From: Ensifer adhaerens
GTDB taxonomy: Bacteria > Pseudomonadota > Alphaproteobacteria > Rhizobiales > Rhizobiaceae
Length of the DNA stretch: 64,000 bases
Direction: 5' to 3'
NCBI RefSeq assembly: GCF_001270265.1
Contig: NZ_LGAP01000003.1
Location: 186,001-250,000, forward strand
The position numbers and the translations under genes are program-made. The notes beneath the pieces are model-generated. The model worked only from the letters and a program-made list of their open reading frames with translations, searched no databases and was not told the origin of the DNA. Of the stretch, positions 9,229-61,893 are shown piece by piece (position 1 is the first letter of the stretch; each line of letters opens with the position of its first letter).

Positions 9229-9333
9229 ACTGCATGTTTCCGTTAATCGTATCCGATTGAAGGACAGAAACATGCAGTCAATCAAAGTGCTACAGCGACC
9301 TTAGCGCGTCTCAAAAGACGCGCGGCGCTGTAG
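9229..9333. repeat. Composite palindromic repeat (rhizobial intergenic element)
   Basis: Two nested structures lie side by side. ACTGCATGTTTC (9229-9240) pairs perfectly with GAAACATGCAGT (9267-9278). Then CTACAGCG (9290-9297) pairs with CGCTGTAG (9326-9333) around an inner GCGCGTCT / AGACGCGC stem (9304-9311 and 9316-9323). The architecture and the GCGCGTCT-CAAA-AGACGCGC core resemble dispersed Rhizobiaceae palindromic elements. It lies directly after the SDR stop and upstream of the binding-protein gene, so it may also end transcription of the SDR operon. Confidence 0.6.
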
Positions 9334-9336
9334 TCA

Positions 9337-43282: not shown

Positions 43283-43310
43283 GCGCGGCGGCTCCGCGCG
43301 TAGGCGCCTT

Positions 43311-45968
43311 TCATTCCGCGGCAGCAGCAAGGCATCCATCGACGATCCCCCTGATCTCGGCGCGGCAGGAGCCGCAATTGGTTCCGGCATTGAGTGCCTG
43401 GCCGACCGCCTCGACCGTGCGGCAGCCGTTGCGCACGGCAGCAACGATCTGGTTGATCCCGACATTGAAGCAGGAGCAGACGGTTGCGCCCGGATCGGGC
43501 TTATCCGCTCCCGGCCGCCCAGCCACGAGCGCGAAGCGCAGGCGTAGATCCGAGTGCGAGACATCGAGCTGCTCGACCGCCCAGTTGCGGGCGACCGCGA
43601 CGGGCTCTGGTGCGAGATAAAGTGCCAGCAGAAGCCGATCACCGTCGAAGAAGGCAAGCCGGCGAAGGCCCGACGGCCCGTCCGCGTAACCGATCGGATC
43701 GATATCCCCAGGGAGGTCGAAGATGCGCCGGCACCAGGCGACCCAATCCTCAGGCATGGTGTCCGCCGCCAGTTCGAGCCGCCACCCTCCCCGCGCCTTG
43801 GCGAGCGCCCAATAGGTGCAATCGAGGCCTTGAGGCTTTGCGGCACTCACCGCAAAGCCATAGGTGGAGGCTTCGAAACGGCGGGCGGAAACAGCAACGT
43901 TCTTGGAAGCCGGCTGTCCCGAAACGGGATCGGTGATCGGCGGCACCAAGGCATCGATGCGCGCCTTGGCCGCGAACTGGTCGTTCCAGTGCATCGGTAC
44001 GAAGAGATTGCCGCGTGCCTGGCGTTCGGTAATCAGTGCCCGAACGATCGCCGCGCCATAGGGGCTTTCCAACACCACGAGATCGGCGGGCGATAGATCA
44101 AGCTCCATCGCATCGCGCGGATGGATCTCGACGAAGGGCTCGCCGATATGGGCCGACAGCCGCGCGCTCTTTCCGGTCCGGGTCATGGTGTGCCAGTGGT
44201 CGCGGACACGCCCGGTGTTGAGGGTGAAAGGGAAGGCATCGTTGACGCGATCGACAACGCGACTTGTGGTCGTGATGAAGCGCGCGCGCCCGTCCGGATG
44301 GTAGAAGCTGCCATCGGCGAAGAAGCGCGTCGTCGCGCTCGCCGCACCTCGCGGCTGCGGCCATTGGAACGGTATCAGCGCATCATAGCCGGCATTATCG
44401 ATCGAGGCATGGGCACCGATATCGAAATCGCGGCGACCGTCGTTTTCGAAGCCGGAAAGACCGGCATGTTCGGCAAAGATTTCGGACGCGGATGCATAGG
44501 CAAATGCGCCGGCAAAACCCATCCGGCGGCCGACTTCGGCAAGCTGCCACCAATCCGCGCGTGCGCCCTCAGGTGCCGACAGAAAACCACGCTGGCGCGA
44601 AATGCGGCGCTCGGAGTTGGTGACCGTGCCATCCTTTTCGCCCCAGCCGAAAGAAGGCAGCAGCACATGCGCATGACGCGTCGTATCGGTCTGCTTCAGG
44701 ACATCGGAGACGACGACGAAGGGACAGATCTTGAGCGCTGCCTCGACGGCATCGGCATCCGGCATCGACACCACCGGATTGGTCGCCATGATCCAGATCG
44801 CCTTGATGCGCCCGTCGGCAACGGCGCGAAACATGTCGACGGCCTTGAGGCCCGGCTTGGCGGCGAGCGACGGCGCGCCCCAGAAACGCCGGACCTGATC
44901 GCGGTGCCCGGCCTTTTCGATATCCATATGGGCGGCTAGCATATTGGCAAGGCCACCAACCTCGCGACCGCCCATGGCGTTGGGCTGGCCCGTCAGCGAG
45001 AACGGCCCCATGCCGGGACGACCGATGCGGCCGGTTACCAGATGGCAGTTGATGATGGCATTGACCTTGTCGGTACCGGCCACCGACTGGTTGACCCCCT
45101 GGCTATAGCAGGTGACGACCTTTTCCGTCGTTTCGAACAGCCGGAAGAAGGCAGCTATCTCCGCCGCCTCGAGCCCCGTCGCCTGCGCCAAAGCGGTCTC
45201 ATCCAGCGCACTTGCTGCGGCGAAGGCCTCGGCGAAGCCGCTGGTATGGGCGGAAATGTAGCCCTGATCGACGGCCGGGCTCGCAGCCAGGTGCGCGAAC
45301 AGGCCATTGAACAGCGCAACATCACCATCCGGTCGGATCGCCAGATGCAGATCGGCGATGTCGGCAGTCATTGTCCGGCGTGGATCGATGACAACGACCC
45401 GCATCTGCGGCCGTGCCACCTTGGCCGCAGCCAGGCGCTGGTAGAGAACCGGATGGCACCAGGCGAGGTTGGAGCCGGTCAGGATGACGAGATCCGCCAA
45501 CTCCAGATCCTCGTAGCAGCCGGGCACGGTATCGGCACCGAAGGCACGGCGGTGGCCGGCCACGGACGAGGACATGCACAGGCGCGAGTTCGTGTCGATG
45601 TTGGCCGAGCCGATGAAGCCCTTCATCAGCTTGTTGGCGACGTAGTAATCCTCGGTCAGCAACTGGCCGGAGACATAGAAGGCAACAGAATCCGACCCAT
45701 GTTCGGCGATCGTGCTTGAGAAACGCTCGGCAACATGATCGAGCGCCTCATCCCAATCCGCCCGTTCGCCGGCAATCTCGGGATAGAGCAGCCGTCCGTC
45801 GAGATCGAGTGTCTCTGCAAGCGCCGACCCCTTGGAGCAAAGCCGGCCGAAGTTGGCCGGATGATCCGGATCGCCTTTCACGCCGACGCCGCCGTCATCG
45901 CCAACCGTCGCGATCACGCCGCAACCGACACCGCAATAGGGACAGGTGGTTTTGACTTCGGTTGCCAT
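43311..45968 (-). CDS. narB: Assimilatory nitrate reductase catalytic subunit (molybdopterin)
   Basis: Reduces nitrate to nitrite in the cytoplasm using bis-MGD molybdenum. ATG at 45968 (MATEVKTTCPYCGVGCGVIA) gives 885 residues; earlier frame is a shadow of nirD. The N-terminal [4Fe-4S] ligands are CPYCGVGC and CSKG; the molybdenum cysteine lies in SRLCMSSSVAGH; TGSNLAWCHPVLYQR and the C-terminal MopB domain with PMHWNDQF follow. The last 60 residues form a BFD-like [2Fe-2S] domain (CSCFNVGINQIV, CGSCRAEI) as in NasA enzymes. It is two bases after nirD and overlaps the cysG region, in one operon from nrtA. Confidence 0.95.
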   Translation of the reverse strand: MATEVKTTCPYCGVGCGVIATVGDDGGVGVKGDPDHPANFGRLCSKGSALAETLDLDGRLLYPEIAGERADWDEALDHVAERFSSTIAEHGSDSVAFYVSGQLLTEDYYVANKLMKGFIGSANIDTNSRLCMSSSVAGHRRAFGADTVPGCYEDLELADLVILTGSNLAWCHPVLYQRLAAAKVARPQMRVVVIDPRRTMTADIADLHLAIRPDGDVALFNGLFAHLAASPAVDQGYISAHTSGFAEAFAAASALDETALAQATGLEAAEIAAFFRLFETTEKVVTCYSQGVNQSVAGTDKVNAIINCHLVTGRIGRPGMGPFSLTGQPNAMGGREVGGLANMLAAHMDIEKAGHRDQVRRFWGAPSLAAKPGLKAVDMFRAVADGRIKAIWIMATNPVVSMPDADAVEAALKICPFVVVSDVLKQTDTTRHAHVLLPSFGWGEKDGTVTNSERRISRQRGFLSAPEGARADWWQLAEVGRRMGFAGAFAYASASEIFAEHAGLSGFENDGRRDFDIGAHASIDNAGYDALIPFQWPQPRGAASATTRFFADGSFYHPDGRARFITTTSRVVDRVNDAFPFTLNTGRVRDHWHTMTRTGKSARLSAHIGEPFVEIHPRDAMELDLSPADLVVLESPYGAAIVRALITERQARGNLFVPMHWNDQFAAKARIDALVPPITDPVSGQPASKNVAVSARRFEASTYGFAVSAAKPQGLDCTYWALAKARGGWRLELAADTMPEDWVAWCRRIFDLPGDIDPIGYADGPSGLRRLAFFDGDRLLLALYLAPEPVAVARNWAVEQLDVSHSDLRLRFALVAGRPGADKPDPGATVCSCFNVGINQIVAAVRNGCRTVEAVGQALNAGTNCGSCRAEIRGIVDGCLAAAAE

Positions 45969-45970
45969 GA

Positions 45971-46309
45971 CTATTCCGCCGCGATCATCAGACTTTCGAG
46001 CGCGATAAAGAGCGCGCCGCCGTCGTTGCGCACCGGGATCGTGCGCACCGCCCCCTCGTCTGCGCCCAGCGCCTTGCCGGTTTCGAGTGAAATCACCCAG
46101 TTGTGCAGCGGGCAGGTCACGGCCGTGCCGTGCACGATGCCCTGTGACAGCGGCCCACCCTTGTGCGGGCAATGATCCTCGATGGCGAACACCTCGTTTT
46201 CGGCCGTGCGGAAGACGGCGATCTTGCCTTGAGGCGTTCGCACGCAGCGTGCGCCCCGGAGCGGAATGTCCGAAATGTCACCGATTGTGATCCAGTTCAT
46301 GTCCATCAT
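45971..46309 (-). CDS. nirD: Nitrite reductase small subunit (Rieske-type NirD)
   Basis: Small subunit of the NADH-dependent assimilatory nitrite reductase, 112 residues from the ATG at 46309 (MMDMNWITIGDISDIPLRGA) with GGAGTGAG upstream at the end of nirB. It keeps both Rieske ligand boxes: DHCPHKGGPLSQG and TCPLHNWVI, so it should carry a [2Fe-2S] cluster, unlike enterobacterial NirD. It lies between nirB (one-base gap) and narB (two-base gap). Confidence 0.93.
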   Translation of the reverse strand: MMDMNWITIGDISDIPLRGARCVRTPQGKIAVFRTAENEVFAIEDHCPHKGGPLSQGIVHGTAVTCPLHNWVISLETGKALGADEGAVRTIPVRNDGGALFIALESLMIAAE

Positions 46310-46310
46310 C

Positions 46311-48773
46311 TCACTCCGCTGCCTGGGAAAAACCGACCGTCGCCATCGGTCGGAACTCGTGCTTGTCCTTGCCGGAGACACGCTCCGACCAGGGATCGAC
46401 CTGGGCGAATTTCTGGCTGAAGACGAAGCGGTCGAAGAACGCCTTGCGCCGTTCGGCATCGTCCATGATCTGGCGGCGGATTTCCTCGAGGCCGACGCGC
46501 TTGGCCCATTTGTAGATCCGCTCGAGATAACGGGCCTGCTCGCGGTACATCTGCGTCAGCGCGACGATATGTTCGAGCGCCTCGTCCTCGGTCCTGACCA
46601 AACCGAGAATTTCGGTGCCCTTGATGTCGAGCCCGGCGGCACCGGCGAAGTGGATCTCGAAACCGCTGTCGACGCAGATCACGCCGATATCCTTGCAGGT
46701 GGCCTCGGCGCAGTTTCTGGGACAGCCGGAGACCGCCATCTTCAGCTTGGCGGGCGTCCAGGATCCCCACATGAATTTTTCGATGCGGATGCCGAGACCG
46801 GTCGAATCCTGGGTGCCGAACCGGCACCAGTCGGAACCGACGCAGGTCTTCACCGTGCGCAGACCCTTGGCATAGGCCTGGCCCGACACGAAGCCGGCCT
46901 TGCCGAGATCGGCCCAGACAGCGGGCAGGTCTTCCTTCTCGATGCCGAGCAGATCGATGCGCTGGCCGCCCGTAACCTTGACCATCGGGATTTCGAACTT
47001 GTCGACCACGTCGGCGATCGCGCGCAATTCCCCAGAGTTGGTGACGCCACCCCACATGCGCGGGACGACGGAATAGGTACCGTCCTTCTGGATATTGGCG
47101 TGCACACGCTCGTTGATGAAGCGCGACTGGTAGTCGTCGGCATATTCATCCGGCCAATCGCAAACGAGATAGTAGTTGAGCGCCGGGCGGCACTTGGCGC
47201 AGCCGCAGGATGTCTTCCACTCCAGTTCCTGCATGACGGCAGGAATAGTCTTCAGGCCCTTGGTCTTGATCAGGCGACGAACATCGTCATGGCCGAGTTC
47301 GGTGCAGGTGCACATCGGCTGGACGGCGGCGGGATTGTAGGCATCGCCGAGCGTCAGCGACATCACCTGCTCGACGAGCCCGGTGCAGGAGCCGCACGAG
47401 GCAGACGCCTTCGTGTGTGCCCTGACGTCATCAAGCGAAGAGAGCCCCTTGCCCTTGATCGTCGCGACGATCTTGCCCTTGCATACGCCGTTGCAACCGC
47501 AGATTTCCGCATCATCCGGCAAGGCTGCAACGGCCGCCGTAGGGTCCAGCGGGGACCCTCCCTGATAGGCCTGGCCGAAAATGAGCGTTTCGCGCATTTC
47601 CGAGATATCGGTGGCTTTCTTCTTCAGATCGTTGAACCACGCGCCGTCGGCGGTTTCGCCGTAAAGCACGGTGCCGATGATGCGGTTGTCCTTCAGGACA
47701 AGGCGTTTGTAGACACCGCCGGCTGCATCGCGCAGCACGATCTCCTCGCGGTCATCGCCTTCGGCAAAATCACCGAGCGAGAAGAGGTTGATGCCGGTCA
47801 CCTTGAGCTTCGTCGGCGTGTCGGAATGGACGAAGGCGGGCGTATGATCGCCGGCCAGGTGCGAAGCGGCGATGCGGGCCATTTCGTAGAGCGGTGCGAC
47901 GAGGCCGTAGACCATGCCGCCGACCTCGGCGCATTCGCCAAGCGCCAGGATATCTCCATCGGAGGTCTGCATGCCGGCATCGACGACGATGCCACGATTG
48001 ACCGCAAGACCGGCTTCCTTGGCTATGCCCGCATTCGGCCGGATGCCGACTGCCATAACCACCAGCGTTGCCGGAATGATTGTGCCGTTATCGAGTTCGA
48101 TGCCCTCGACCTTGCCATTACCGATGATGGCTTTCGTGTTGGCCTTGCAGATGACCTTGATGCCACGCTCCTCGACGGCTTTCTGCAGCAGATAACCGGC
48201 CGCCGGATCGAGCTGGCGCTCCATCAGCGTCGGCATCACGTGCAGCACGGTCACATCCATGCCGCGCGAAGCAAGGCCGGCGGCCGCTTCAAGCCCGAGC
48301 AGGCCGCCGCCGATGACGACAGCCTTTTCGCGCGACTGGGCGGCAAGCAGCATGGCGTTGACATCGTCGAGGTCGCGGTAGGTGATGACGCCGGGCAGAT
48401 CCTTACCGGGAACGGGGATAATGAAGGGTACGGAGCCGGTAGCGATGACGAGCTTGTCATAGCTTTCGGTGACGCCATGATCTGAGGTGACGGTCTTCTT
48501 GGCGCGGTCGATCGAAACGACCTTGTGGCCCTTGTAGAGCGTGATGCCGTGCTTGATGTACCAACCGTCACCGTGGATGATGATCTGCTCGTAGTCCTTT
48601 TCGCCTGATAGCACCGGCGAGAGCATGATGCGGTCGTAGTTGACGCGCGGTTCGGCGTTGAAGATCGTGACCTGATATTGTCCGGGAGCCTGTTCGAACA
48701 GATGCTCCAACATGCGGCCCGGCGCCATACCGTTGCCGACGATGACGAGTTTTTCGGGGGTTTGATGAGCCAT
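46311..48773 (-). CDS. nirB: Assimilatory nitrite reductase (NAD(P)H) large subunit
   Basis: Six-electron reduction of nitrite to ammonium with FAD, iron-sulphur clusters and siroheme. The ATG at 48773 (MAHQTPEKLVIVGNGMAPGR) gives 820 residues. Order: FAD/NAD-binding pyridine nucleotide oxidoreductase (VIGGGLLGLEAAAGL near residue 150), BFD-like [2Fe-2S] domain (CGCNGVCKG and CGSCTGLVEQV), a second CxC segment, then two siroheme-reductase domains with the shared [4Fe-4S]-siroheme cysteines TCVGSDWCRFG and SGCPRNCAEATCKD. Five bases separate it from nrtC. It depends on siroheme, which the truncated cysG downstream may no longer complete. Confidence 0.96.
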   Translation of the reverse strand: MAHQTPEKLVIVGNGMAPGRMLEHLFEQAPGQYQVTIFNAEPRVNYDRIMLSPVLSGEKDYEQIIIHGDGWYIKHGITLYKGHKVVSIDRAKKTVTSDHGVTESYDKLVIATGSVPFIIPVPGKDLPGVITYRDLDDVNAMLLAAQSREKAVVIGGGLLGLEAAAGLASRGMDVTVLHVMPTLMERQLDPAAGYLLQKAVEERGIKVICKANTKAIIGNGKVEGIELDNGTIIPATLVVMAVGIRPNAGIAKEAGLAVNRGIVVDAGMQTSDGDILALGECAEVGGMVYGLVAPLYEMARIAASHLAGDHTPAFVHSDTPTKLKVTGINLFSLGDFAEGDDREEIVLRDAAGGVYKRLVLKDNRIIGTVLYGETADGAWFNDLKKKATDISEMRETLIFGQAYQGGSPLDPTAAVAALPDDAEICGCNGVCKGKIVATIKGKGLSSLDDVRAHTKASASCGSCTGLVEQVMSLTLGDAYNPAAVQPMCTCTELGHDDVRRLIKTKGLKTIPAVMQELEWKTSCGCAKCRPALNYYLVCDWPDEYADDYQSRFINERVHANIQKDGTYSVVPRMWGGVTNSGELRAIADVVDKFEIPMVKVTGGQRIDLLGIEKEDLPAVWADLGKAGFVSGQAYAKGLRTVKTCVGSDWCRFGTQDSTGLGIRIEKFMWGSWTPAKLKMAVSGCPRNCAEATCKDIGVICVDSGFEIHFAGAAGLDIKGTEILGLVRTEDEALEHIVALTQMYREQARYLERIYKWAKRVGLEEIRRQIMDDAERRKAFFDRFVFSQKFAQVDPWSERVSGKDKHEFRPMATVGFSQAAE

Positions 48774-48778
48774 GGGGA

Positions 48779-49579
<801 letters not shown>

Positions 49580-49593
49580 GGTCTTTGCCTTTC

Positions 49594-50487
49594 TCACGCG
49601 GTTGCCGTGCCGCGCGTGACGACGCGGCCGATGAGGGCGATGAGACGATCGAGGAGGAAGCCGACGATGCCGACGTAGATCAGCGCAACGATGATGTCGC
49701 TGATCAACGAGGAGTTCCATGCATCCCAGATGAAGAAGCCGATGCCGACGCCACCGATCAGCATCTCGGCGGCAACGATGGCGAGCCACGAAAGGCCGAT
49801 GCCGATGCGAAGGCCGGTGAAGATGTAAGGAGCCGCCGCCGGCAACATGATCTTGCCGAAATATTCGAAGGCGTTGAGCCGCAGCACCTTGGCGACGTTC
49901 TGATAATCCTGCGGAATATTGCGGATGCCGACGGCCGTGTTGATGATGATCGGCCAGATCGCGGTGATGAAGATCACGAAGATCGCCGAGGGGGTGCCAT
50001 CCTGGAAGGCGGCAAGCGACAGCGGCAACCAGGCGAGTGGCGGTACCGTGCGCAGCACCTGGAAGATCGGATCGAGCCCGCGCATGGCAAGCGCGCTCTG
50101 GCCAACGAGCGCGCCGAGCGCGATACCGACGACGGCCGCCAGCGCATAACCAATCGCAACACGCTGCAGGCTGGCCGAGATATGCCAGAACAGCCCCTGA
50201 TCGACGCCTTGTCCGACATAGAACGGGTGCGCAATGAGCTCCCAGCTTTCTTCGAGAACGCGTGTCGGCGCCGGCAAGCTCGAGTCGGGCGCCGAACAGA
50301 TCACCTGCCAGGCAACCAGGATGAAGCTCAGGGTGACCAAGAGCGGCACGAGGTTGGTCAAAGCCGTCATGAGTGCCGCCGGCAGCCGGCGGCTGGCGCC
50401 GGGCCTGGCGGTACGACTAAAGGCGATGACACGGGCCGCGTGCGGTGGGGCAGCATCCTGCGGAAGCTTGAGATTGGTGACGGACAT
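49594..50487 (-). CDS. nrtB: Nitrate ABC transporter permease
   Basis: Inner-membrane permease of 297 residues in the NrtB/SsuC group. It has a cytoplasmic N-terminus of about 40 residues, then LVPLLVTLSFILVAWQVI as first helix and about six membrane segments. The EAA loop is NVAKVLRLNAFEYFGKIMLP. TAIWPIIINTAVGIRNIPQD and GLRIGIGLSWLAIVAAEML are characteristic of nitrate permeases. TTAGGAG precedes the ATG. nrtC follows after 14 bases and nrtA precedes by 59 bases. Confidence 0.94.
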   Translation of the reverse strand: MSVTNLKLPQDAAPPHAARVIAFSRTARPGASRRLPAALMTALTNLVPLLVTLSFILVAWQVICSAPDSSLPAPTRVLEESWELIAHPFYVGQGVDQGLFWHISASLQRVAIGYALAAVVGIALGALVGQSALAMRGLDPIFQVLRTVPPLAWLPLSLAAFQDGTPSAIFVIFITAIWPIIINTAVGIRNIPQDYQNVAKVLRLNAFEYFGKIMLPAAAPYIFTGLRIGIGLSWLAIVAAEMLIGGVGIGFFIWDAWNSSLISDIIVALIYVGIVGFLLDRLIALIGRVVTRGTATA

Positions 50488-50546
50488 ACCGTTCTCCTAA
50501 AGGTTCAAGTCGAGCGGCGGCGGGATTCGGCCGCCGCCACGAAGGC

Positions 50547-51839
50547 TCAGGCGACGCGCGAGATGCTCAGGCTCTTGAGGTAAGCCTGCGGATCTGCCGG
50601 GTCGAACACCTTGCCGTCGAAGAATTTTTCGATGCCGCGCGAGGTCGAGGAGGGGATGTCGGAGACGCCGAGCTCCTTGGCCGCCTCACGCCAGATATCC
50701 TCGCGATTGACCTTGGCAACGAGCGCCTTGACGTCGGTGTCGGGAGCAAACTTGCCCCAGCGGATGTTCTCCGTCAGGAACCAGCTGTCATGGCTCTGGA
50801 AGGGATAGGAGGCGTGGTCGCGCCAGAACTTCATGAAATGCGGGCTGGCCTCGACGACCTTGCCGTTGCCATAGTCGTATTCGCCCTTCAGCCGGTCGAC
50901 GATGTCCTTCGGCGGTACGTTGAACCAGCTGCGCTTGCCGACGATCTTCGCCAACTCTTCCTTGTTGGCCATGTCGTCGCACCATTGCGCCGCTTCCTGG
51001 ATGGCCATGGTGAGCGCCTTGGCGGCGCGCGGGTTTTTCTCCACCCAGTCGGCGCGCATTGCGAAGGATTTTTCCGGATGTTCGTTCCAGATTTCGGCGG
51101 TGTTGACGGCGGTGTAGCCGATCTTCTGGTTGACGAGCTGCTCGTTCCAGGGCTCGCCGACGCAGAAACAGTCCATGGTGCCGACCTTCATATTGGCGAC
51201 CATCTGCGGCGGCGGAACAACAATCGTCTCGACGTCCGAGTCCGGATCAATGCCGCCCGCAGCAAGCCAGTAACGCAGCCAGAGGTCGTGTGTGCCACCG
51301 GGGAAGGTCATCGCCACCTTGGCAGCCGCGCCTTCCGCCTTCTTCTTCGCAAAGGCCTCCTTCAACGCGGAAGCATCGAGCCCGACTTTCAGATCGGCAT
51401 AGGCGCCACCGACCGAGATCGCCTGCGCATCGAGATTGAGGCGGGCGAGGATCGCCATCGGCAGCGGCTGGTTGTTCTGCGTCACCTTGCCGGTCGAGAT
51501 CAGGTAGGGCATCGGCGTGAGAATATGGGCGCCATCGATGCCGGCACCGGCCGAACCGAGCACAAGGTTGTCGCGCGTCGTGCCCCAGGAAGCCTGCTTG
51601 ACCACATCGACTTCGGTCATGCCGTACTTGTCGAACAGGCCCTTCTCCTTGGCGACGATCAGCGGTGCGGAATCGGTGAGCGCGATAAAGCCGAGCACGG
51701 CCTTGGTCGTTTCCGGACCCGCAGCCTGAGCGAAGGCGCCGGAGGGGAATGCCGTCTTGACCGCACCGAACAGGGCGGCCGTGGCCGTGGTCTTCAGCAG
51801 GCTGCGGCGGGTCAGGCCGCCGGTCGAAAACTTGGTCAT
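50547..51839 (-). CDS. nrtA: Nitrate ABC transporter substrate-binding protein (Tat-exported)
   Basis: Binds nitrate in the periplasm; 430 residues from the ATG at 51839 (MTKFSTGGLTRRSLLKTTAT) with AGAGGA upstream. The twin-arginine TRRSLLKTTATAALFGA shows export by Tat. The NrtA/CmpA fold follows (ALTDSAPLIVAKEKGLFDKY, IDGAHILTPMPYLISTGKV, PGGTHDLWLRYWLAAGGIDP). The loop TMDCFCVGEPWNEQLVNQKI is strongly conserved among nitrate binders. It shares this fold with NasS encoded upstream. The 352-base leader before it contains hairpins and a T-run and is the probable site of NasT control. Confidence 0.95.
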   Translation of the reverse strand: MTKFSTGGLTRRSLLKTTATAALFGAVKTAFPSGAFAQAAGPETTKAVLGFIALTDSAPLIVAKEKGLFDKYGMTEVDVVKQASWGTTRDNLVLGSAGAGIDGAHILTPMPYLISTGKVTQNNQPLPMAILARLNLDAQAISVGGAYADLKVGLDASALKEAFAKKKAEGAAAKVAMTFPGGTHDLWLRYWLAAGGIDPDSDVETIVVPPPQMVANMKVGTMDCFCVGEPWNEQLVNQKIGYTAVNTAEIWNEHPEKSFAMRADWVEKNPRAAKALTMAIQEAAQWCDDMANKEELAKIVGKRSWFNVPPKDIVDRLKGEYDYGNGKVVEASPHFMKFWRDHASYPFQSHDSWFLTENIRWGKFAPDTDVKALVAKVNREDIWREAAKELGVSDIPSSTSRGIEKFFDGKVFDPADPQAYLKSLSISRVA

Positions 51840-51878
51840 GCGCAGGTTCCTCTGCTGCTGCCGGGCAAAGCCGGACAT

Positions 51879-51904
51879 AAAAAAACGCCGCTTGGTGCTT
51901 GCGT
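51879..51904 (-). terminator. Leader terminator upstream of nrtA
   Basis: On the minus strand an imperfect hairpin ACGC-AA-GC-ACCAA-GC-G-GCGT (51904-51886) is followed by seven T residues (51885-51879), 40 bases before the nrtA ATG. This is the expected attenuator of a NasT-type antitermination leader. Confidence 0.55.
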
Positions 51905-52020
51905 CCGGGATCAGGAGGAATCCGCGGGAAACAAAAACCTTGCGACGTCAGTGTCTCTGGCAAACGCGATCTGGCGTTTGAACTCACTTCAATCGCCGTT
52001 GACCGAAGCAATTTCTTAGA
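51905..52020 (-). promoter_or_regulatory. nrtA leader RNA with alternative hairpins (candidate NasT target)
   Basis: Two mutually exclusive stems overlap. GGCG-A-TTGAA-GTGAG-TTCAA-A-CGCC spans 51997-51973 and CAAACGC-CAGATC-GCGTTTG spans 51980-51961, a perfect 7-base stem with a six-base loop. ANTAR proteins bind paired hexaloop hairpins next to a terminator, which is the layout here. The loop lacks the usual A at position 1 and G at position 4, so the exact target remains open. The rest of the 352 bases between nasS and nrtA (52021-52191) is AT-rich and holds no gene. Confidence 0.45.
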
Positions 52021-52191
52021 AGCAAGGGCCGTGCCAGTTTCAGAGGAATAGCTTTAATATATTGAAATCAAAGGATAAAAATACATCTTGATAAAGTCGC
52101 CTAGAAAAATGGCTATTATAGAATCTGCTGAATTATTGTGCGCCGCACACAAGTGGCCTGGCGACTCTGCCCAAACAAGCGGCCGACGCCT

Positions 52192-53487
52192 TCAGTTGTC
52201 GGCGTCAAAAGCGGCTACGCCGCCCTTCGCACGCACGGGAAACGCCTCGACATAGGCCTCGATGGCGGCAGGGTCGAAAACATGCCCGTCCACGAAACGA
52301 TCGTCGGCAGATGCGCCCTCGATCCTGACATCAGCACCCACTGGCGCCACGCCATTCCCGAGCGCGAGCCGATAGAGGTCCGGGCGATAGGCCGAAGCCA
52401 CCGCCGTCATCCCGTCCGGGTTGAGGCCAACCTGCCCCCAGCGCGCCATCTGGCTGTAGATCCACAGTGCATGGCTCGGTCGGGGATAGTTGGCGAAACG
52501 GCGATGGAAGACAAAATAATCGTCGATGACCCGGCGCTGTCCGTGAGCGTCGATGGTGAACTCGCCGGAAAGCACGCGGCGGATGATCTCGACCGGGGCG
52601 CCGACATAACGCTGGTCGGCGAGTGCGTCGGACAGGGCACCGCGGTTCTGCGGATCGTCGCACCACTGCGCGGCGGCATCCAACGCCACGATCAATCGTG
52701 AAACGGTTTCCGGATTGGCCTCGGCCCATTCAGGGCGCATGCCGACGACCTTTTCGGGCGCCGACGGCCAGATATCCTGCTTGGCGGCCACGATACGCCC
52801 GACGCCGCGCTCGGATGCAACCATGTTCCAGGGCGCACCGACGCAGAAACCATCGATCGCGCCGGCGGCCAGCGCGTCGGAGGTCATCGGGGGCGGCACC
52901 ACCACAAGCTTGACGTCGCGGTCGGGATCGATGCCGCCAGCCGCCAGCCAATAGCGGAATTCGTAATTATGCGAGGAGAAGGGGTAGGTCACGCCCAAGG
53001 TCGGCGGCCCTTCGCCGTGTGCCGTCATGCGTCGAAGCACGGCAGCAAGCGCTCGGGCGTTGGCAAGCGCGTCCTCAGCGCCCCCGAGCGCCTCTTCCTC
53101 GGCCATGCGGGCATAGAGCCGGTTGGACAGCGTGATGGCGTTGCCGCCGCGCCCGAGCGAGAAGGGTGTAATTGCAGGCGAAGGGTTGGAGCCGAGACCG
53201 AGCATCGCCGCAACGGGCATGGGCGCGAGCATATGGGCAATATCGAACTGCCGGAAAGCCAACCGATCGCGAACATTGGCCCAGGATACATCCTTGACCA
53301 GATCGAGTGTCAGGCCTTCTTTGCGAGCAAAGCCGAACTCGCAAGCGGCAATCAGCACCGATGCGTCCACCAGTGGGATAAAGCCGGCGCGCAGCGTGCG
53401 GGCATCCTCGCTGCGCAGCTGTTGCGGCGCCGGCAAGCCGTCGCCGGTCGAAGCCTGGCCGCTGCCGATATCGCCGAAATTGGCCAT
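52192..53487 (-). CDS. nasS: NasS, nitrate/nitrite sensor and NasT inhibitor
   Basis: Cytoplasmic relative of NrtA that binds NasT and releases it when nitrate or nitrite is present. The 431-residue protein starts at the ATG at 53487 (MANFGDIGSGQASTGDGLPA) and has no signal peptide, which separates it from transport binding proteins. Shared fold marks: AGFIPLVDASVLIAACEFGF, FDIAHMLAPMPVAAMLG, YWLAAGGIDPDRDVKLVVVP, GAIDGFCVGAPWNMVASERG. It follows nasT by 52 bases in the same direction and precedes the nrt operon, as in other NasTS systems. Confidence 0.93.
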   Translation of the reverse strand: MANFGDIGSGQASTGDGLPAPQQLRSEDARTLRAGFIPLVDASVLIAACEFGFARKEGLTLDLVKDVSWANVRDRLAFRQFDIAHMLAPMPVAAMLGLGSNPSPAITPFSLGRGGNAITLSNRLYARMAEEEALGGAEDALANARALAAVLRRMTAHGEGPPTLGVTYPFSSHNYEFRYWLAAGGIDPDRDVKLVVVPPPMTSDALAAGAIDGFCVGAPWNMVASERGVGRIVAAKQDIWPSAPEKVVGMRPEWAEANPETVSRLIVALDAAAQWCDDPQNRGALSDALADQRYVGAPVEIIRRVLSGEFTIDAHGQRRVIDDYFVFHRRFANYPRPSHALWIYSQMARWGQVGLNPDGMTAVASAYRPDLYRLALGNGVAPVGADVRIEGASADDRFVDGHVFDPAAIEAYVEAFPVRAKGGVAAFDADN

Positions 53488-53539
53488 GATGTTCACTCCG
53501 CTCACTCCTTGCGACAAGGCCGATGCACCGCGCGCGCCA

Positions 53540-54127
53540 TCACATCAACAGGCCCGCAGCCGTCACCACGCTTTGCGCGATTTCAGACATCTTCTTCTTT
53601 TCGTTCATCGCCGTCTGGCGCAGCAGGGCAAAGGCTTCCTCTTCCGAGAGACCGCGGATCTTCATCAAGATACCCTTGGCGCGCTCGACAACCTTGCGCT
53701 CCTCGAGCGCGGACCTTGCGTCGGCCAGTTCCCTTTGCAGCCGGCTGAATGCGTTGAACCGACTGACGGCCATGTCGAGGATCGGCTTGACGCGCTCCTT
53801 CTTCAGGCCGTCGACGATATAGGCCGACACGCCCGCTTCCACCGCCGCCTCGATCGAAGCCGTGTCCGAGCGATCCACGAACATCGCGATCGGTCGCCCC
53901 ACCGTGCGCGTCAGCTGGAAGAGATGCTCCATCATGTCGCGATTGGGGTTTTCGATATCGATGACGATAACATCGGGCCTGAGGCTGTCGATGATGCGCG
54001 CGACGCCCTGCACCTCATGAATGACCGTGACCTTGCGATGCCCGGCCTCATGCAATCCTTCCTCGATGATCGAGGCACGGATGGCGTTCTCGTCGATAAC
54101 GAGAATGGTGAGGTCGCGGTTTGTCAT
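53540..54127 (-). CDS. nasT: NasT, ANTAR-domain transcription antiterminator
   Basis: RNA-binding regulator that lets transcription pass the nrt/nir leader terminator when nitrate is sensed. From the ATG at 54127 (MTNRDLTILVIDENAIRASI) it has 195 residues. Residues 5-120 are a receiver-like domain (PDVIVIDIENPNRDMM); it is unlikely to be controlled by phosphorylation in this family. Residues 130-190 form the ANTAR domain: LEERKVVERAKGILMKIRGL and then EEEAFALLRQTAMNEKKKMS. The upstream 54151-54170 dyad lies in its promoter or leader. Confidence 0.94.
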   Translation of the reverse strand: MTNRDLTILVIDENAIRASIIEEGLHEAGHRKVTVIHEVQGVARIIDSLRPDVIVIDIENPNRDMMEHLFQLTRTVGRPIAMFVDRSDTASIEAAVEAGVSAYIVDGLKKERVKPILDMAVSRFNAFSRLQRELADARSALEERKVVERAKGILMKIRGLSEEEAFALLRQTAMNEKKKMSEIAQSVVTAAGLLM

Positions 54128-54150
54128 GGCACGATCATGATGCAGCGCAG

Positions 54151-54170
54151 CAATTTGCGCAACCAAATTG
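54151..54170. promoter_or_regulatory. Dyad element upstream of nasT
   Basis: CAATTTG-CGCAAC-CAAATTG is a perfect 7-base inverted repeat with a 6-base centre, 24 bases from the nasT ATG. A second palindrome, ACAAATTTGT, lies at 54183-54192. Geometry (7-base stem, six-base loop, 20 bases in total) equals that of the hairpin in the nrtA leader at 51961-51980. Confidence 0.4.
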
Positions 54171-57708: not shown

Positions 57709-58932
57709 ATGCTTAATCTACTTAGAAAACCACGGCCCCGCGGCGGAATCCCGCGTGGGCTCGCCACCACTGGCCCCGTTCTCTTCTCCTATGGCTTCAG
57801 GCCGTTTTTCCTCGGGGCCAGCCTCTGGGCGATCTTCGCCATGGCCGCGTGGATCGCAGCCCTTGTCAGGGGTATCGCCATCGCCGGCGATTATGGCCCT
57901 GCCCATTGGCACGCGCACGAGATGCTCTTCGGGTTCTCATCAGCCGTGCTCGCAGGCTTCCTTTTGACTGCGGTTCCGAACTGGACCGGAAGATTACCTG
58001 TCTCCGGAAGGCCGCTCGCTTGCCTGTTCGGCCTGTGGGTCGCCGGGCGACTGGCGCTGCTGACAACAGATGTCATCGGACTGAAGCTGGCGGTCATCAT
58101 CGAAGCCGCGTTCATGCCGGCATTGCTGGTGATCTGCGCGCGCGAAGTCATCGTCGGGCGGAAGTGGAAGGATCTGAAGGTCGTCGGCGGATTGGTCCTC
58201 CTTTCGGCCGCCAACGCGTGGTTCCACATCTCCGTCGTCCGCCAACTCGACGTCGATGCTGCGGCACGGCTGGCGATCGGCGCCTATGTCATGCTGATCA
58301 TGATTGTCGGCGGCAGAATTCTGCCGAGTTTCACCCGCAACTGGCTGAACAAATTCGGCCGAACCGACTTTCCGGTTCCTTATAATCGCTTCGATACAGC
58401 AACCATTCTCGTCGGCGTCGCAGCTCTTGCCTGCTGGACATTCGCACCGCAACATATCGTCACCGCCACTATAGCGTCCGCCGCCTCCTTGCTGCAGGCC
58501 GCCCGGCTTGTTCGCTGGCGTGGCTGGACCACCTGGCCGGACAAGATCGTGTTCGTCCTGCACGCGGCCTACGCCTTCGTTCCGCTCGGCTTCGCCGCCG
58601 TTGCGGCAGGTGCCGTCGGCGCCCTTGACGGGTATCCCGTCATGCATGTGATGACCGTTGGTGTCATGGCCTGCATGATGCTGGCCGTGATGACGCGCGC
58701 AAGCCGGGGACACACCGGGCGGCCGCTGGCTGCATCGAACCTCAGCTGCGCGTCTTATATCGCCATCATCGGCGCGGCGCTGGCGCGCCCCTTCGCCGAG
58801 GTCCTACCGGCGCACTATCATCACCTGATCGCGCTGTCGGGAACGCTCTGGATCGCAGCCTTTGCTCTGTTCTGCATCGAATACGGCCCGATGCTGGTTC
58901 GCGATCGGCGCTCGCCACGTGGGGCCGCGTAG
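57709..58932 (+). CDS. nnrS: NnrS family protein (heme-copper membrane protein of NO metabolism)
   Basis: A 407-residue inner-membrane protein with about 12 hydrophobic segments and the NnrS motifs: FSYGFRPFFLGASLWAIFAM, AHWHAHEMLFGFSSAVLAGF with conserved histidines, LTAVPNWTG, IVGGRILPSFTRNWL and VMHVMTVGVMACMMLAVMTR. NnrS proteins bind heme and copper and help cells cope with nitric oxide; the exact reaction is unknown. Divergent from nirK; followed by a repeat whose inverted arms can end transcription. Confidence 0.93.
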   Translation: MLNLLRKPRPRGGIPRGLATTGPVLFSYGFRPFFLGASLWAIFAMAAWIAALVRGIAIAGDYGPAHWHAHEMLFGFSSAVLAGFLLTAVPNWTGRLPVSGRPLACLFGLWVAGRLALLTTDVIGLKLAVIIEAAFMPALLVICAREVIVGRKWKDLKVVGGLVLLSAANAWFHISVVRQLDVDAAARLAIGAYVMLIMIVGGRILPSFTRNWLNKFGRTDFPVPYNRFDTATILVGVAALACWTFAPQHIVTATIASAASLLQAARLVRWRGWTTWPDKIVFVLHAAYAFVPLGFAAVAAGAVGALDGYPVMHVMTVGVMACMMLAVMTRASRGHTGRPLAASNLSCASYIAIIGAALARPFAEVLPAHYHHLIALSGTLWIAAFALFCIEYGPMLVRDRRSPRGAA

Positions 58933-59033
58933 AGCATTTCCAGGAAAAGTGCGAAGCGATTTTCCGTCAGGAAATACGTAAAAACAAAGCGATAGAGCGT
59001 TTCTGCTTCTCCGTCCAAGGCGGAAACGCTCTA
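58932..59033. repeat. RIME-like intergenic repeat after nnrS
   Basis: It starts GAGCATTTCCAGGAAAAGTG, continues to TTTTCCGTCAGGAAATACGT and AAAACAAAG, and ends in a perfect 11-base inverted pair TAGAGCGTTTC (58993-59003) / GAAACGCTCTA (59023-59033). The layout matches rhizobial RIME elements and the copies at 61324 and, shorter, 3735. It begins at the nnrS stop. Confidence 0.7.
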
Positions 59034-59113: not shown

Positions 59114-59422
59114 TTACAGCCCGACAGCTGCCTCGAGCATCATCTCCGGCGTCCAAGGCGGCTCATAGGTCAGCCGCACTTCGGCATATTCGACGCCCGG
59201 CACGTACCAGACGCAGTTCTGCACGGCCTCCTTGAGAAAGGCGGTCGCCGGGCATCCCTTTATCGTCGTCGTCATCGTCACCCGGACAAGACCGCCGTCC
59301 TGGACGGCAATGTCGTAGATCAGACCGAGATCCACGATATTGGAGCCCATTTCCGGATCGACGATCATCCGCAGGGCGTCGCGGATCCTTTCGACCAGCT
59401 CTTCGCTTTCAGTCGGCTGCAT
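59114..59422 (-). CDS. MIP18/DUF59-type metal-sulfur cluster assembly protein
   Basis: A 102-residue protein of the SufT/PaaD/MIP18 family from the ATG at 59422 (MQPTESEELVERIRDALRMI), 14 bases inside the DUF2249 gene, with AAGGGG upstream. Family marks: VDPEMGSNIVDLGLIYDIAV, the core DPE-x-G-x-N-I-V-DLG, and TTTIKGCPATAFLKEAVQNC with the conserved cysteine of the GCP loop. Such proteins help mature Fe-S enzymes. Last in a three-gene overlapping operon; in this setting it may serve iron-sulphur repair or cluster delivery under NO stress, an inference. Confidence 0.85.
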   Translation of the reverse strand: MQPTESEELVERIRDALRMIVDPEMGSNIVDLGLIYDIAVQDGGLVRVTMTTTIKGCPATAFLKEAVQNCVWYVPGVEYAEVRLTYEPPWTPEMMLEAAVGL

Positions 59423-59945
59423 TTTCGTGCCCCTTGCGTCCACCGACGCGGATCAGGATGCGATAGGTCTCGCCGGCCGCATCGAAATTGCCGGCCCATT
59501 TGTGGCCGCGCTTGGCAAGCTCGGGATAGAGAAACAGCGGCTCGCGCGCGAGCAAGGCGAAAAGCACCTCGCCGGCCTGCATCTTTTCCACCACCGCGAG
59601 GATGCGCACCATCGGCTCTGGCGGGTCCAGATCCGTCAGGTCGAGCTGGCGCGCGGGATCAGGCCATGTGTCCAGATCTGTGTCGCCGGCCGAGACCCTG
59701 ACCTCGTCCACCTGTTCCTCCGGCGTGAACAGGACCTCCCAATCGCCGTTGCCGAGAGGCTGGTCCTGGTGCGCAAAGCCGCGGCCGGCCATGACGCTGA
59801 AAAGTGGCACCGGCCTGAACGTCGCGCTCAGCTTCAGAGGTTGCCCGGGTGCCAGACCATCGACGGCGCTCATGATGGCCTGGAACGGATCGCTGCCGCT
59901 CTTGAGAAGTGGCCTGACGTCTAGCTCGTAGGGATCTTTTGTCAT
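59409..59945 (-). CDS. Tandem DUF2249 protein
   Basis: A 178-residue soluble protein from the ATG at 59945 (MTKDPYELDVRPLLKSGSDP), overlapping the membrane-protein stop by four bases. Two DUF2249 units are seen: residues 5-75 (LDVRPLLKSG, AIMSAVDGLAPGQPLKLSAT, FRPVPLFSVMAGRGF) and residues 105-175 (QLDLTDLDPPEPMVRILAVV, EKMQAGEVLFALLAREPLFL, YPELAKRGHKWAGNFD). DUF2249 has a TusA-like fold and occurs beside hemerythrins and denitrification genes; its role is not established. No catalytic residues are evident. Confidence 0.85.
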   Translation of the reverse strand: MTKDPYELDVRPLLKSGSDPFQAIMSAVDGLAPGQPLKLSATFRPVPLFSVMAGRGFAHQDQPLGNGDWEVLFTPEEQVDEVRVSAGDTDLDTWPDPARQLDLTDLDPPEPMVRILAVVEKMQAGEVLFALLAREPLFLYPELAKRGHKWAGNFDAAGETYRILIRVGGRKGHENAAD

Positions 59946-61306
59946 GGTTGTCTCCGTGACTGGAACGGTGGGAAGAAAAGGTGTGGCCGGGCGAAGCCGC
60001 CAGACAGCCGAAGATTGCTGGGCACGTTGCTGAGCCGTCGTGTTGCGACGAATTCCCAAAGCAGCGCATTGACCGCAATCAACTGGCCAAGGCTGCTGAC
60101 GCGAAACAGAGATGCGTTGTCGAGGCAGAGCGCGGCGGAGGCAACGATCACTGTAAGATAGAACAGCCGGAACCAGAACGCAGCGCGCGTCTCGACAACC
60201 AGATCCTGGACCCGCGGCGTCGGCATGCGCCCGAGCAGCGGGCCGTAGCATTCGAGCCAGGTGATGAAAGGGACGATCTTGTAGAGCTGCGCCAGCCCCA
60301 TGCCCGTCAGCCAGCCGAATGTGACGAGATAGACGAGCGGACCCACGCCTCTTTCGATCTGGCCACTGACGGCCAAGGCCAGGAAGAATATGGTCGCAAC
60401 AGTCAGCGCCGCGAAAGCGCCGATGCCGGCACGGCTGTTCAGCTCGATGAGCTTGCGTTTGCGCCCGCGGTAGATCCGTACGATGTCCGCCATGTAAATT
60501 CCGATGGCGATCACACCGGCAAGCGCGGCGATCAAAAGCAAGACGACGCGCCCGGCAGAACCGGAAAGGATCATCGGCACGATGCAGGCGACAATCCCGA
60601 GGGCCGCCGCTCCGAGCGCCCAGACGATCCTGCTGCTTTGCCGCTCCCGGTCAGGAGACAGCATGAACATGGTCAAAAGCCGGTAGCTGACGCCCATGGT
60701 CGTAAAACTCAGCCAGCCGCCCAGCCCCAGCGCCGCGTGCAGCGAAAGCCCTTCCAGCGTCAGATCGATCGCAGCCTGCGTATCGGAGAGCCCGGCAAGG
60801 ACGAACGCATAGGTGCCGCCAAGGGCAATGGTCGCGACCAGCGAGCCGAGACCGACGGCGACGAAACGCGCTGGCAACGGCAACGGCCGTGCCTGCCACA
60901 GCGTTGTTGCAAAGACGATGACGAGCAGGCCGAAGCCGGCGATCGTCACAGTCGCGCCGAACGGGAGCAAAAGTGGTGAAAAGCTGCCGGCCCCAGCGAG
61001 GCTGACAAAGCCAAGGACCAGGCCGGTTATGCCGACAACCAGCAGCACCAGAGCCGGGAGAGCCAGGCCCGGGAGGGAAAGCGGCCGGCCAACGAGGACC
61101 GGCACGAACTGCAACAGGGCTCCCGCCATCAACAGGCTGAGCCAGCCAAGCGCAATGGTGTGAACGAGTGCAAGCGTCTCAGGGGCTTCGATGGATGAGA
61201 CCGGATATCCGAAACCGAGGACCATCATGACCTCGCCGATGGCAAGAAAGATCAGCGCGGCCGCGAAATAGGACATCGTCCAGCGGGAAAGCGTGGCTCC
61301 GAACAT
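59942..61306 (-). CDS. Polytopic membrane protein of denitrification clusters (NnrS/CcoN-like)
   Basis: A 454-residue inner-membrane protein with about 12 hydrophobic helices. Conserved-looking histidines lie in membrane segments, as in heme-copper and NnrS proteins: ALVHTIALGWLSLLMAGALL (H-x4-GW), GLSLHAALGLGGWLSFTTMG. The segment YKIVPFITWLECYGPLLGRM is also typical of these cluster-associated proteins. It lacks the full six-histidine set of cytochrome oxidase subunit I as far as can be seen, so it is not called an oxidase. First gene of the overlapping trio; it may handle heme, copper or NO. Function unknown. Confidence 0.75.
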   Translation of the reverse strand: MFGATLSRWTMSYFAAALIFLAIGEVMMVLGFGYPVSSIEAPETLALVHTIALGWLSLLMAGALLQFVPVLVGRPLSLPGLALPALVLLVVGITGLVLGFVSLAGAGSFSPLLLPFGATVTIAGFGLLVIVFATTLWQARPLPLPARFVAVGLGSLVATIALGGTYAFVLAGLSDTQAAIDLTLEGLSLHAALGLGGWLSFTTMGVSYRLLTMFMLSPDRERQSSRIVWALGAAALGIVACIVPMILSGSAGRVVLLLIAALAGVIAIGIYMADIVRIYRGRKRKLIELNSRAGIGAFAALTVATIFFLALAVSGQIERGVGPLVYLVTFGWLTGMGLAQLYKIVPFITWLECYGPLLGRMPTPRVQDLVVETRAAFWFRLFYLTVIVASAALCLDNASLFRVSSLGQLIAVNALLWEFVATRRLSNVPSNLRLSGGFARPHLFFPPFQSRRQP

Positions 61307-61323
61307 CGCGGTTCATCCTGACG

Positions 61324-61425
61324 AGAGCATTTCCAGGAAAGTGTGAAGCGGTTTTCCGTGAGGAAATGCATAAAAACAAAGAAATGGAGCGCGTCTGCTG
61401 CCCCGCTCAAACCACAAACGCTCTC
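61324..61425. repeat. RIME-like intergenic repeat
   Basis: GAGCATTTCCAGGAAAGTGT, GCGGTTTTCCGTGAGGAAAT, then AAAAACAAAGAAATGGAGCG and a closing AACGCTCTC copy the element at 58932 with about 80 percent identity by eye. It separates the DUF2249 gene at 61440 from the membrane-protein gene. Confidence 0.7.
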
Positions 61426-61439
61426 GCTGGGGGCACCCG

Positions 61440-61730
61440 TCAGTGGCCGCTGCTGCTGCCGCAGCAGCAATCGCAGCCGGAGGCCTGTTGCCGGCCGATC
61501 TCGACCCGCCAGACAGAGGGTCCCTGCTCAAGGTATTCCCAGGTGAATTCGCCGGGATAACGGGTTTCCAACTGGTAGTGCAGCGGGCGCGGGTCGTGGT
61601 CGTTGACGATGATGAAGGAGCCGCCTTCGGCCAATGCATTGAGCATGCCGAAGATCTTCGGATGGCGTTCCGCCGGCGGGATCGTTCGCACGTCGATCAA
61701 GGGCTTCGTTTCTGTTTCTGCAGTTGTCAT
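61440..61730 (-). CDS. DUF2249 protein with cysteine-rich tail
   Basis: A 96-residue protein from the ATG at 61730 (MTTAETETKPLIDVRTIPPA). One DUF2249 unit: LIDVRTIPPAERHPKIFGML, NALAEGGSFIIVNDHDPRPL, HYQLETRYPGEFTWEYLEQG, with the GPSVWRVEIGR end strand. The C-terminus SGCDCCCGSSSGH has four cysteines in five positions plus a final histidine, a plausible metal or Fe-S/copper site. It faces hemN across a promoter with two Fnr-type boxes and heads the minus-strand denitrification-accessory genes. Function unknown. Confidence 0.8.
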   Translation of the reverse strand: MTTAETETKPLIDVRTIPPAERHPKIFGMLNALAEGGSFIIVNDHDPRPLHYQLETRYPGEFTWEYLEQGPSVWRVEIGRQQASGCDCCCGSSSGH

Positions 61731-61830: not shown

Positions 61831-61844
61831 TTGTCGAAGCGCAA
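61831..61844. promoter_or_regulatory. Fnr/NnrR-type box in the hemN/DUF2249 divergent promoter
   Basis: TTG-TCGAAGCG-CAA fits TTG-N8-CAA. Its centre is 108 bases from the DUF2249 start and 119 from hemN, so it is better placed for the minus-strand gene. Confidence 0.5.
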
Positions 61845-61879: not shown

Positions 61880-61893
61880 TTGGCTTTTCGCAA
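61880..61893. promoter_or_regulatory. Fnr/NnrR-type box upstream of hemN
   Basis: TTG-GCTTTTCG-CAA shares TTTTCGCAAAG with the nnrS box at 57623. Its centre lies 70 bases upstream of the hemN ATG, suitable for activation from -41.5. Confidence 0.6.

Follow-up and report, generated by a model that had tools for sequence, protein, structure and literature searches.

Within a 64,000-nucleotide stretch of Ensifer adhaerens DNA (contig NZ_LGAP01000003.1, positions 186,001 to 250,000; hereafter the window) we examined a four-gene module of a denitrification cluster, and the comparative evidence supports treating three of its genes as one coupled unit. The three encode a 12-helix membrane protein, here called MEM, a protein with two DUF2249 domains in tandem, and a MIP18/DUF59-type iron–sulphur (Fe-S) or metal–sulphur cluster assembly factor; a single-domain DUF2249 gene stands at their head. 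A role of the unit in maintaining cofactors during nitrogen-oxide respiration is proposed tentatively.

All four genes lie on the minus strand. The single-domain DUF2249 protein, of the DrpA type (96 amino acids, ATG start, positions 61440-61730), matches PF10006 once (105 bits against a Pfam gathering cut-off of 29.5) and ends in ...GCDCCCGSSSGH. It is followed by MEM (454 residues, 59942-61306), to which the AlphaFold model and a fold search assign the heme-copper oxidase subunit I fold, by the tandem DUF2249 protein (178 residues, 59409-59945), which matches PF10006 twice (107 bits, same cut-off) and has two TusA-fold domains without the TusA cysteine, and by the MIP18-like protein (102 residues, 59114-59422), which matches PF01883 and carries Cys57. 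Read directly from the sequence, MEM and the tandem gene overlap by 4 bases (ATGA) and the tandem and MIP18 genes by 14, and the four genes are present as a preliminary description of this DNA had listed them; the “triple DUF2249” of that description is right as to three domains but these are spread over two proteins. The whole genome contains three PF10006 matches, all in this cluster, and two further PF01883 matches outside it.

In GTDB contigs 132 loci with a MEM relative were confirmed by search, and the best 80 of them served for the related-locus counts. MEM, the tandem DUF2249 gene and the MIP18 gene are adjacent and co-oriented, with the last two behind MEM, in 77 of the 80 (including L022 and L062, in which one of the three genes runs over more than one frame), and a single-DUF2249 gene lies ahead of MEM on the same strand in 74. 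Start codons in these loci were placed nearest to the preceding stop, which flatters the tightness of the spacing. The three exceptions are L060, at a contig end, L047, which has no MIP18 match, and L081, in which MEM and two DUF2249 domains are fused in one frame of 637 residues. This adjacency, together with the natural fusion, bears out the earlier suggestion of a single coupled unit. Wherever the opened records annotate MEM, they label it “hypothetical protein”.

The neighbours of the unit vary, with a cNorB match near 47 of the 80 loci and NirK near 46; six have nos genes without cNorB or NirK, and the flanks of 22 contain none of these. An nnrS neighbour occurs in 42 loci and an NnrR-like regulator in 45. 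When the 28 loci that lack cNorB and NirK were clustered with nine further ones, the recurrent neighbours included the beta subunit of respiratory nitrate reductase, a globin-domain protein, a 4Fe-4S ferredoxin, DUF1971 and DUF6522. In Aminobacter the trio stands directly behind nosRZDFYLX, and on Aminobacter and Mesorhizobium plasmids it accompanies nos genes, the record of M. loti NZP2037 annotating no MIP18. The module is frequent on plasmids (113 plasmid records with a MEM match); in S. meliloti 1021 it lies on pSymA.

Among 397 sampled Pseudomonadota genomes, a MEM relative (E-value up to 1e-5) was found in 46, of which 14 are close (E below 1e-70) and 32 distant. NirK above its family cut-off occurs in 12 of the 14 close MEM genomes against 60 of all 397 (Fisher p 4e-9), cNorB in 8 against 62 (p 3e-4) and NosZ in 7 against 63 (p 3e-3), the p values ignoring the relatedness of the genomes; the window's own genome is one of the 14, and without it the counts become 11, 7 and 6 of 13. 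A nitric oxide (NO) reductase is present in 10 of the 14 when two genomes with qNor are counted, the qNor query having been taken from one of the 14, and a single close genome (G174) has none of NirK, NorB, qNor and NosZ. All 14 carry the trio. At least one of NirK, cNorB and NosZ occurs in 39 of the 46 MEM genomes against 85 of the 351 others (p 1e-15), and the 32 distant genomes have NirK in 1, cNorB in 12 and NosZ in 19. These co-occurrence tests, likewise uncorrected for relatedness, support the predicted association with nirK and nor. The genes of the module co-occur beyond the genus, in other genera and families and, in part, in other phyla. An exclusive tie to NosZ and its CuZ sulphur, raised by the trios behind nos genes, was lowered by the presence of NosZ in only 7 of the 14 genomes, and one to NorB was rejected on the corresponding counts (8 with cNorB, 10 with qNor included).

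The head of the module carries two NnrR/FNR-type boxes, TTGTCGAAGCGCAA (minus strand TTGCGCTTCGACAA) at 61831-61844 and TTGGCTTTTCGCAA (minus strand TTGCGAAAAGCCAA) at 61880-61893, approximately 101-114 and 150-163 bases ahead of the single-DUF2249 ATG, respectively; both lie in the divergent promoter shared with hemN. The TTGN8CAA pattern occurs 9 times in the whole window against 11.9 expected, no more than chance. Upstream of the single-DUF2249 gene in 73 related loci, 97 such boxes were counted against 6.0 expected from shuffles, with at least one box in 54 of the 73, which upholds the earlier assignment of NnrR-type boxes. The 19 loci without a box all have no cNorB and NirK in their flanks, except L048 and L076. 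The published NnrR consensus is of the TTGN8CAA form (accessible text of PMC1274295), and from their form the boxes are probably bound by NnrR.

Folds and conserved residues of the four proteins

MEM has no match in Pfam-A at E up to 10, PF00115 and PF05940 included, or in NCBIfam at E up to 0.001. Its AlphaFold (AF2) model has 12 long helices and a predicted local distance difference test score (pLDDT) of 92. Foldseek places this model with the heme-copper oxidases (probability 1.00, E 2.5e-6), and VIA-align gives Z 33.4 over 395 residues with CcoN and 32.0 over 391 with NorB, in support of the heme-copper-like fold suggested earlier. Heme-copper oxidases account for all 50 structural matches listed, and the TsuA-type fold is not among the matches listed. 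At the level of sequence, comparison with the NorB profile is not significant (hhalign probability 0.15%), nor is that with the NnrS profile, and a search of the PDB sequences with the MEM profile is empty at E up to 10. On these comparisons homology between MEM and NorB or NnrS at the sequence level was rejected, and the relation of MEM to the heme-copper oxidases, as judged from the predicted model, appears to be one of fold only. MEM thus shares the 12-helix fold of CcoN and NorB but has two conserved intramembrane histidines and no sequence-level match to them; like NnrS it is a polytopic membrane protein found with NO-responsive regulons, with nnrS itself as a neighbour here, but it matches neither PF05940 nor the NnrS profile.

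Heme-copper oxidases are defined by six histidine ligands for two hemes and CuB/FeB. The window's MEM contains only three histidines, H49, H190 and H442, of which H49 and H190 are conserved within the membrane; by helix position H49 would be the counterpart of the helix 2 ligand of the low-spin heme and H190 that of the CuB/FeB ligand in helix 6, and the remaining ligand helices, 7 and 10, have no histidine. MEM as an ordinary oxidase or NO reductase subunit was rejected because ligand residues are missing, with only two conserved histidines left, and for the same reason the heme or copper handling suggested earlier was not supported in its ordinary heme-copper form. In an alignment of 127 distinct bacterial and archaeal sequences fitted to a profile, H190 and M213 are kept in all, and H49 and Q66 in all but one, which has a gap. 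K343 is lysine in all bacteria except three with arginine and is histidine in five of five haloarchaea, while R209 is not retained in distant MEM sequences. Q66, R209 and K343 belong to a threefold pattern in which each follows by 12 positions the glycine of a Gly-Trp pair (54/55, 197/198 and 331/332), which fits the pseudo-threefold build of the oxidases.

Both MEM termini are predicted to be cytoplasmic because the loops assigned to that side hold 16 Lys/Arg residues and the others none. The cytoplasmic halves of the helices are also the more conserved (1.20 versus 1.71 bits, p 3e-6), and it is on this side that soluble partners would dock. Alignment A4, of MEM, comprises 59 of the 80 loci and the window, with near-duplicates, L062 and L081 excluded; alignments A1, A2, A5 and A6 contain 16, 17, 13 and 17 hand-chosen sequences, respectively.

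Over 77 residues the single DUF2249 protein shares 62% identity with a Thermus protein. The histidines of its ERHPKIF and NDHDP (DHDP) motifs are each kept in 75 of 76 sequences, Thermus DrpA included, and by eye the ERHP histidine seems to occupy the place of the TusA cysteine. The window's protein has a C-terminal GCDCCCG tail; at least two tail cysteines are present in 52 of 74 loci and none in Thermus. The tandem protein is modelled as two TusA-like domains (pLDDT 86), the relative arrangement of which is left undefined by a predicted template modelling score (pTM) of 0.53. Its second domain aligns best in VIA with the YeeD part of YeeE-YeeD (Z 11.5), followed by E. coli TusA (Z 10.6), with Foldseek E values that are weak (1.4e-3 at best), and the protein exceeds the PF01206 cut-off (30.6 versus 28.6 bits), so that the TusA-like fold proposed for DUF2249 was recovered. 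The DUF2249 domains share this fold with the TusA sulfurtransferases but not their CPEP cysteine: CPEP aligns with PPEP in the second tandem domain, which puts proline at the persulfide position, and no invariant cysteine exists among 16 tandem sequences. A TusA-like sulphur relay by the DUF2249 domains, as earlier envisaged, was rejected on these grounds.

The MIP18-like protein scores 66 bits against PF01883 (cut-off 23.5), matches solved MIP18-family proteins and has C57 invariant in 17 sequences. It stays below the NCBIfam cut-offs of TIGR02945 (90.3 versus 143.4 bits), TIGR03406 (78.4 versus 202.6) and TIGR02159 (53.1 versus 108.15), and so falls short of the level of the SufT, PaaD and SUF-associated models while keeping the family match and the cysteine. 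In L050 and L070, the two loci checked, an Nfu_N domain is fused to MIP18. None of the four module proteins matches a DNA-binding or signalling domain in Pfam or NCBIfam.

Relatives in other phyla and published DUF2249 proteins

A profile built from alignment A4 alone, and hence from close and nearly all alphaproteobacterial MEM sequences, was run against 972 frames of 11 loci. It picked out a single MEM protein per stretch in Thermus (two stretches, E 9e-17 and 3e-16), Aliarcobacter (2e-31), five haloarchaea (3e-24 to 6e-18) and Cupriavidus (6e-10), and none in two further haloarchaeal loci taken for their DUF2249 genes (L139 and L140). MEM spans four phyla; in Deinococcota, Campylobacterota and haloarchaea it has DUF2249 and/or MIP18 genes beside it. 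In Aliarcobacter a DUF2249-like gene, scoring 23 bits and so under the Pfam cut-off, stands in a row with MEM and MIP18; in Natronococcus DUF2249 genes lie on both sides of MEM, and in Haloferax larsenii a multicopper oxidase gene precedes MEM, with a qNor nearby. MEM, a membrane family of four phyla, has no model in either Pfam or NCBIfam and looks like a natural example of an oxidase fold that lost most of its metal ligands.

In Thermus strain AA3-7 the nar operon is directly followed by a row of drpA, drpB, a small oxidase-like protein, protoglobin, MEM and MIP18; strain TF28 has the same row, with other genes between it and nar, and in both strains a 4-base overlap joins MEM and MIP18. The window resembles these rows in encoding a single and a tandem DUF2249 protein together in a nitrogen-oxide respiration cluster, with the 62% identity of the single protein noted above, and the AA3-7 and TF28 rows go on to a MEM homologue and MIP18. 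The differences are that DrpB carries a DUF1858 domain, for which the window's tandem protein has no Pfam match (3 of the 80 loci have DUF1858 as a gene of its own near the trio), and that the Thermus rows have the extra small oxidase-like protein and protoglobin and another gene order, MEM in the window sitting between the single and tandem genes. The small protein (L137:10477-10911) shows a partial PF00115 match below cut-off and a weak match to the iterated MEM profile, and may be an oxidase-like partner. On pTT27 of T. thermophilus HB8 (L150 4983-5923) the module is decayed, with MEM fragments beside an intact MIP18 gene; the product of that gene is identical over 103 residues to PDB entry 2cu6 (TTHB138).

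DrpA and DrpB have been studied by mutation and published as a “nitrate sensor” (PMC6282519). In the accessible text of that report, transcription from the nar and dnr promoters is altered in drp mutants and its nitrate dependence lost; the drpAB double mutant makes NarG, yet its nitrate reductase activity is down to a tenth; DrpB is found partly at the membrane and DrpA is reported to be periplasmic; and MEM and MIP18 are not mentioned. The strain of that study merits attention: on its plasmid (T. thermophilus NAR1, L151) a transposase gene (9104-9949) lies between drpB and the genes for the small hypothetical protein, protoglobin, MEM and MIP18. DrpAB therefore deserves a second look, since elsewhere these genes follow directly.

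Other published work touches on parts of the module, here too as far as the accessible text goes. In three rhizobia a COG4309 (DUF2249-family) gene was described as probably transcribed together with nor under NnrR control, and a relevance to NO reductase was proposed (Rodionov 2005, PMC1274295); the gene was noted alone, with neither a membrane partner nor MIP18. The Bradyrhizobium NnrR transcriptome includes a DUF1858 gene among the NnrR targets and does not discuss MEM or the MIP18 gene (PMC6710368), and in Haloferax mediterranei the nar operon encodes a DUF2249-containing “iron-sulfur carrier” ATPase (PMC11218638). The Thermus and Haloferax studies treat DUF2249 proteins as likely sensors (PMC6282519, PMC11218638). 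The “undescribed system” of the preliminary description must be narrowed to this extent, as DUF2249 was linked to nor in 2005 and DrpA/DrpB has been analysed by mutation, but in accessible open-access PMC full text we found no account of the whole module. The known link of the domain to nor, and later to nar, is here extended to a four-gene module with an unnamed membrane family, apparently undescribed.

Candidate functions of the module

The reading that we put forward, as possible and no more firmly than that, is that the module is a membrane-anchored unit maintaining the cofactors of nitrogen-oxide respiration. MEM would serve as an oxidase-fold scaffold in the cytoplasmic membrane, on the cytoplasmic face of which the DUF2249 proteins would dock, binding client proteins, or metal through their conserved histidines; the MIP18 protein would pass Fe-S or other metal–sulphur clusters to enzymes working amid NO, and NO-responsive Crp/Fnr regulators would turn the unit on. 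Its task would be to load or repair Fe-S or other metal–sulphur centres exposed to NO. The physical complex, the Fe-S transfer, the repair or insertion role, the cargo and the client enzymes are all predicted components of this model. Loading or repair is suggested by the features of the MIP18 protein together with the DrpAB mutant data (accessible text of PMC6282519) and the Haloferax nar-operon iron-sulfur carrier (likewise PMC11218638). Fe-S maintenance would also fit better than a sulphur relay because the MIP18 cysteine is kept, Nfu_N-MIP18 and MEM-DUF2249 fusions occur and the cytoplasmic face of MEM is conserved. The Thermus AA3-7 row behind nar and the position of some distant MEM genes beside hemerythrin-DUF2249 genes are further points in its favour.

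Several observations weigh against cofactor maintenance. Most NirK genomes in the sample (48 of 60) have no close MEM, and some genomes with NirK and cNorB (G253 and G281) have no MEM match; MEM is therefore not needed for these enzymes as such. No MIP18 match was found at distant Pseudomonadota MEM loci (16 loci with up to 1.5 kb on each side, and nine longer stretches), MIP18 is not annotated in the five haloarchaeal MEM stretches, and the Cupriavidus MEM has a hemerythrin neighbour, with neither DUF2249 nor MIP18 annotated in its stretch. NirK, NorB and NosZ, as possible clients, are not known to carry an ordinary Fe-S cluster. The reported periplasmic location of Thermus DrpA also counts against this scheme (PMC6282519), and accessible open-access full text yielded no experiment on MEM or this MIP18 protein.

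A broader version, which we hold to be doubtful, would see an unrecognised and widespread nitrogen-oxide respiration complex, in which an oxidase scaffold without most of its metal ligands gives TusA-fold proteins that lack the cysteine, and a MIP18 carrier, a membrane platform for maintaining metal–sulphur cofactors against NO, DrpAB being one part of it.

The main rival is the sensor model of the Thermus authors. Applied here, the DUF2249 proteins would be sensors of nitrate, NO or the state of cofactors that govern denitrification transcription together with MEM, a receptor in the membrane, as proposed for DrpA and DrpB. The altered nar and dnr transcription of the Thermus mutants argues for it (PMC6282519, accessible text), as does the 62% identity of the single DUF2249 proteins. 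The four proteins, however, match no DNA-binding or signalling domain; an NnrR-like regulator is already encoded in the alphaproteobacterial clusters (45 of 80 loci), and conserved boxes stand ahead of the unit too; sensing needs no MIP18 carrier; and the drpAB double mutant also lacks nitrate reductase activity despite making NarG (PMC6282519, accessible text). We therefore judge a regulatory unit unlikely.

Less probable again is the direct handling of NO or metal by MEM, which in the manner of NnrS would bind heme, copper or NO through H49 and H190 and so lower free NO or load metal. Its heme-copper oxidase fold, the near-complete conservation of H49, H190 and M213 across bacteria and archaea, the frequency of nnrS as a neighbour and the protoglobin and globin-domain neighbours are in keeping with such a role, but the three histidines are too few for the usual centres, the matches to the NorB and NnrS profiles are not significant, and DUF2249 and MIP18 would be left unexplained.

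MEM as a channel for sulphur or another anion is very unlikely. Through the polar ring Q66/R209/K343 it would feed a TusA-like partner as in the YeeE-YeeD (TsuA-TsuB) thiosulfate uptake system, supplying, for example, sulphide for the copper–sulphur site of NosZ. That system likewise couples or fuses a membrane protein to a TusA-fold domain, YeeD is the best fold match of the second DUF2249 domain, a MEM-DUF2249 fusion exists and the Aminobacter trio stands directly behind the nos genes. YeeD works through a cysteine, however, and DUF2249 has no invariant one; R209 is not kept in distant MEM, NosZ is present in only half of the close MEM genomes, and MEM folds as an oxidase. That the genes have no joint function and are merely co-regulated passengers of denitrification islands, as their frequency on plasmids and dispensability for denitrification might suggest, is most improbable, since order and adjacency survive whether the neighbours are nor, nos or nar genes and partly hold in other phyla as well.

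If the cofactor-maintenance model holds, the module would bear on how denitrifiers keep NO-sensitive metal centres working beside the NO source, and through this on the release of nitrous oxide. The gene set is defined and lies in genetically tractable strains (S. meliloti 1021 on pSymA, and Thermus).

Genomic surroundings

Within the window the module is flanked on one side by nnrS (57709-58932, PF05940), nirK, an FGE-sulfatase-type gene that we presume from its position to be nirV, and a Crp/Fnr regulator, and on the other by hemN. The window holds only the end of norD; norQ, norB, norC and norE lie beyond it, followed by a hemerythrin gene, nnrU and ubiX, ubiD, ubiT, ubiU and ubiV, the names of the genes beyond the window resting on a reading of their sequences and on one annotated relative. 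The UbiX, UbiD and UbiT/UbiU/UbiV-like genes adjoin nor and nnrU just outside the window (L004:12495-17172), and similar ubi-like sets lie near the module in L047 and L063; we take these genes to represent the O2-independent ubiquinone route.

The distant Pseudomonadota MEM genes have DUF2249 and/or hemerythrin proteins as neighbours, hemerythrin being also a domain of the RIC repair family. Among the neighbour matches of distant MEM (25/31) one query had a hemerythrin domain, and some may therefore be hemerythrin only, as in L138. One distant MEM class (L099-L114, approximately 30% identity) is in several genomes divergent to genes for hemerythrin-DUF2249 proteins, and Pfam confirmed both domains in L101 and L110.

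A dispersed repeat of approximately 94 bases flanks the trio (58946-59032 and 61338-61424, the copies 79% identical), the second copy separating MEM from the single-DUF2249 gene in this strain. Matches to the repeat in the genome number 42, a count for which only 40 of 126 candidates were scored, and it resembles the rhizobial intergenic mosaic elements. Finally, positions 42200-54166 of the window hold, judged from translations only, an apparent nitrate assimilation cluster beside the denitrification genes, with open reading frames for a nitrate reductase, a nitrite reductase, a nitrate ABC transporter and an ANTAR-type regulator.

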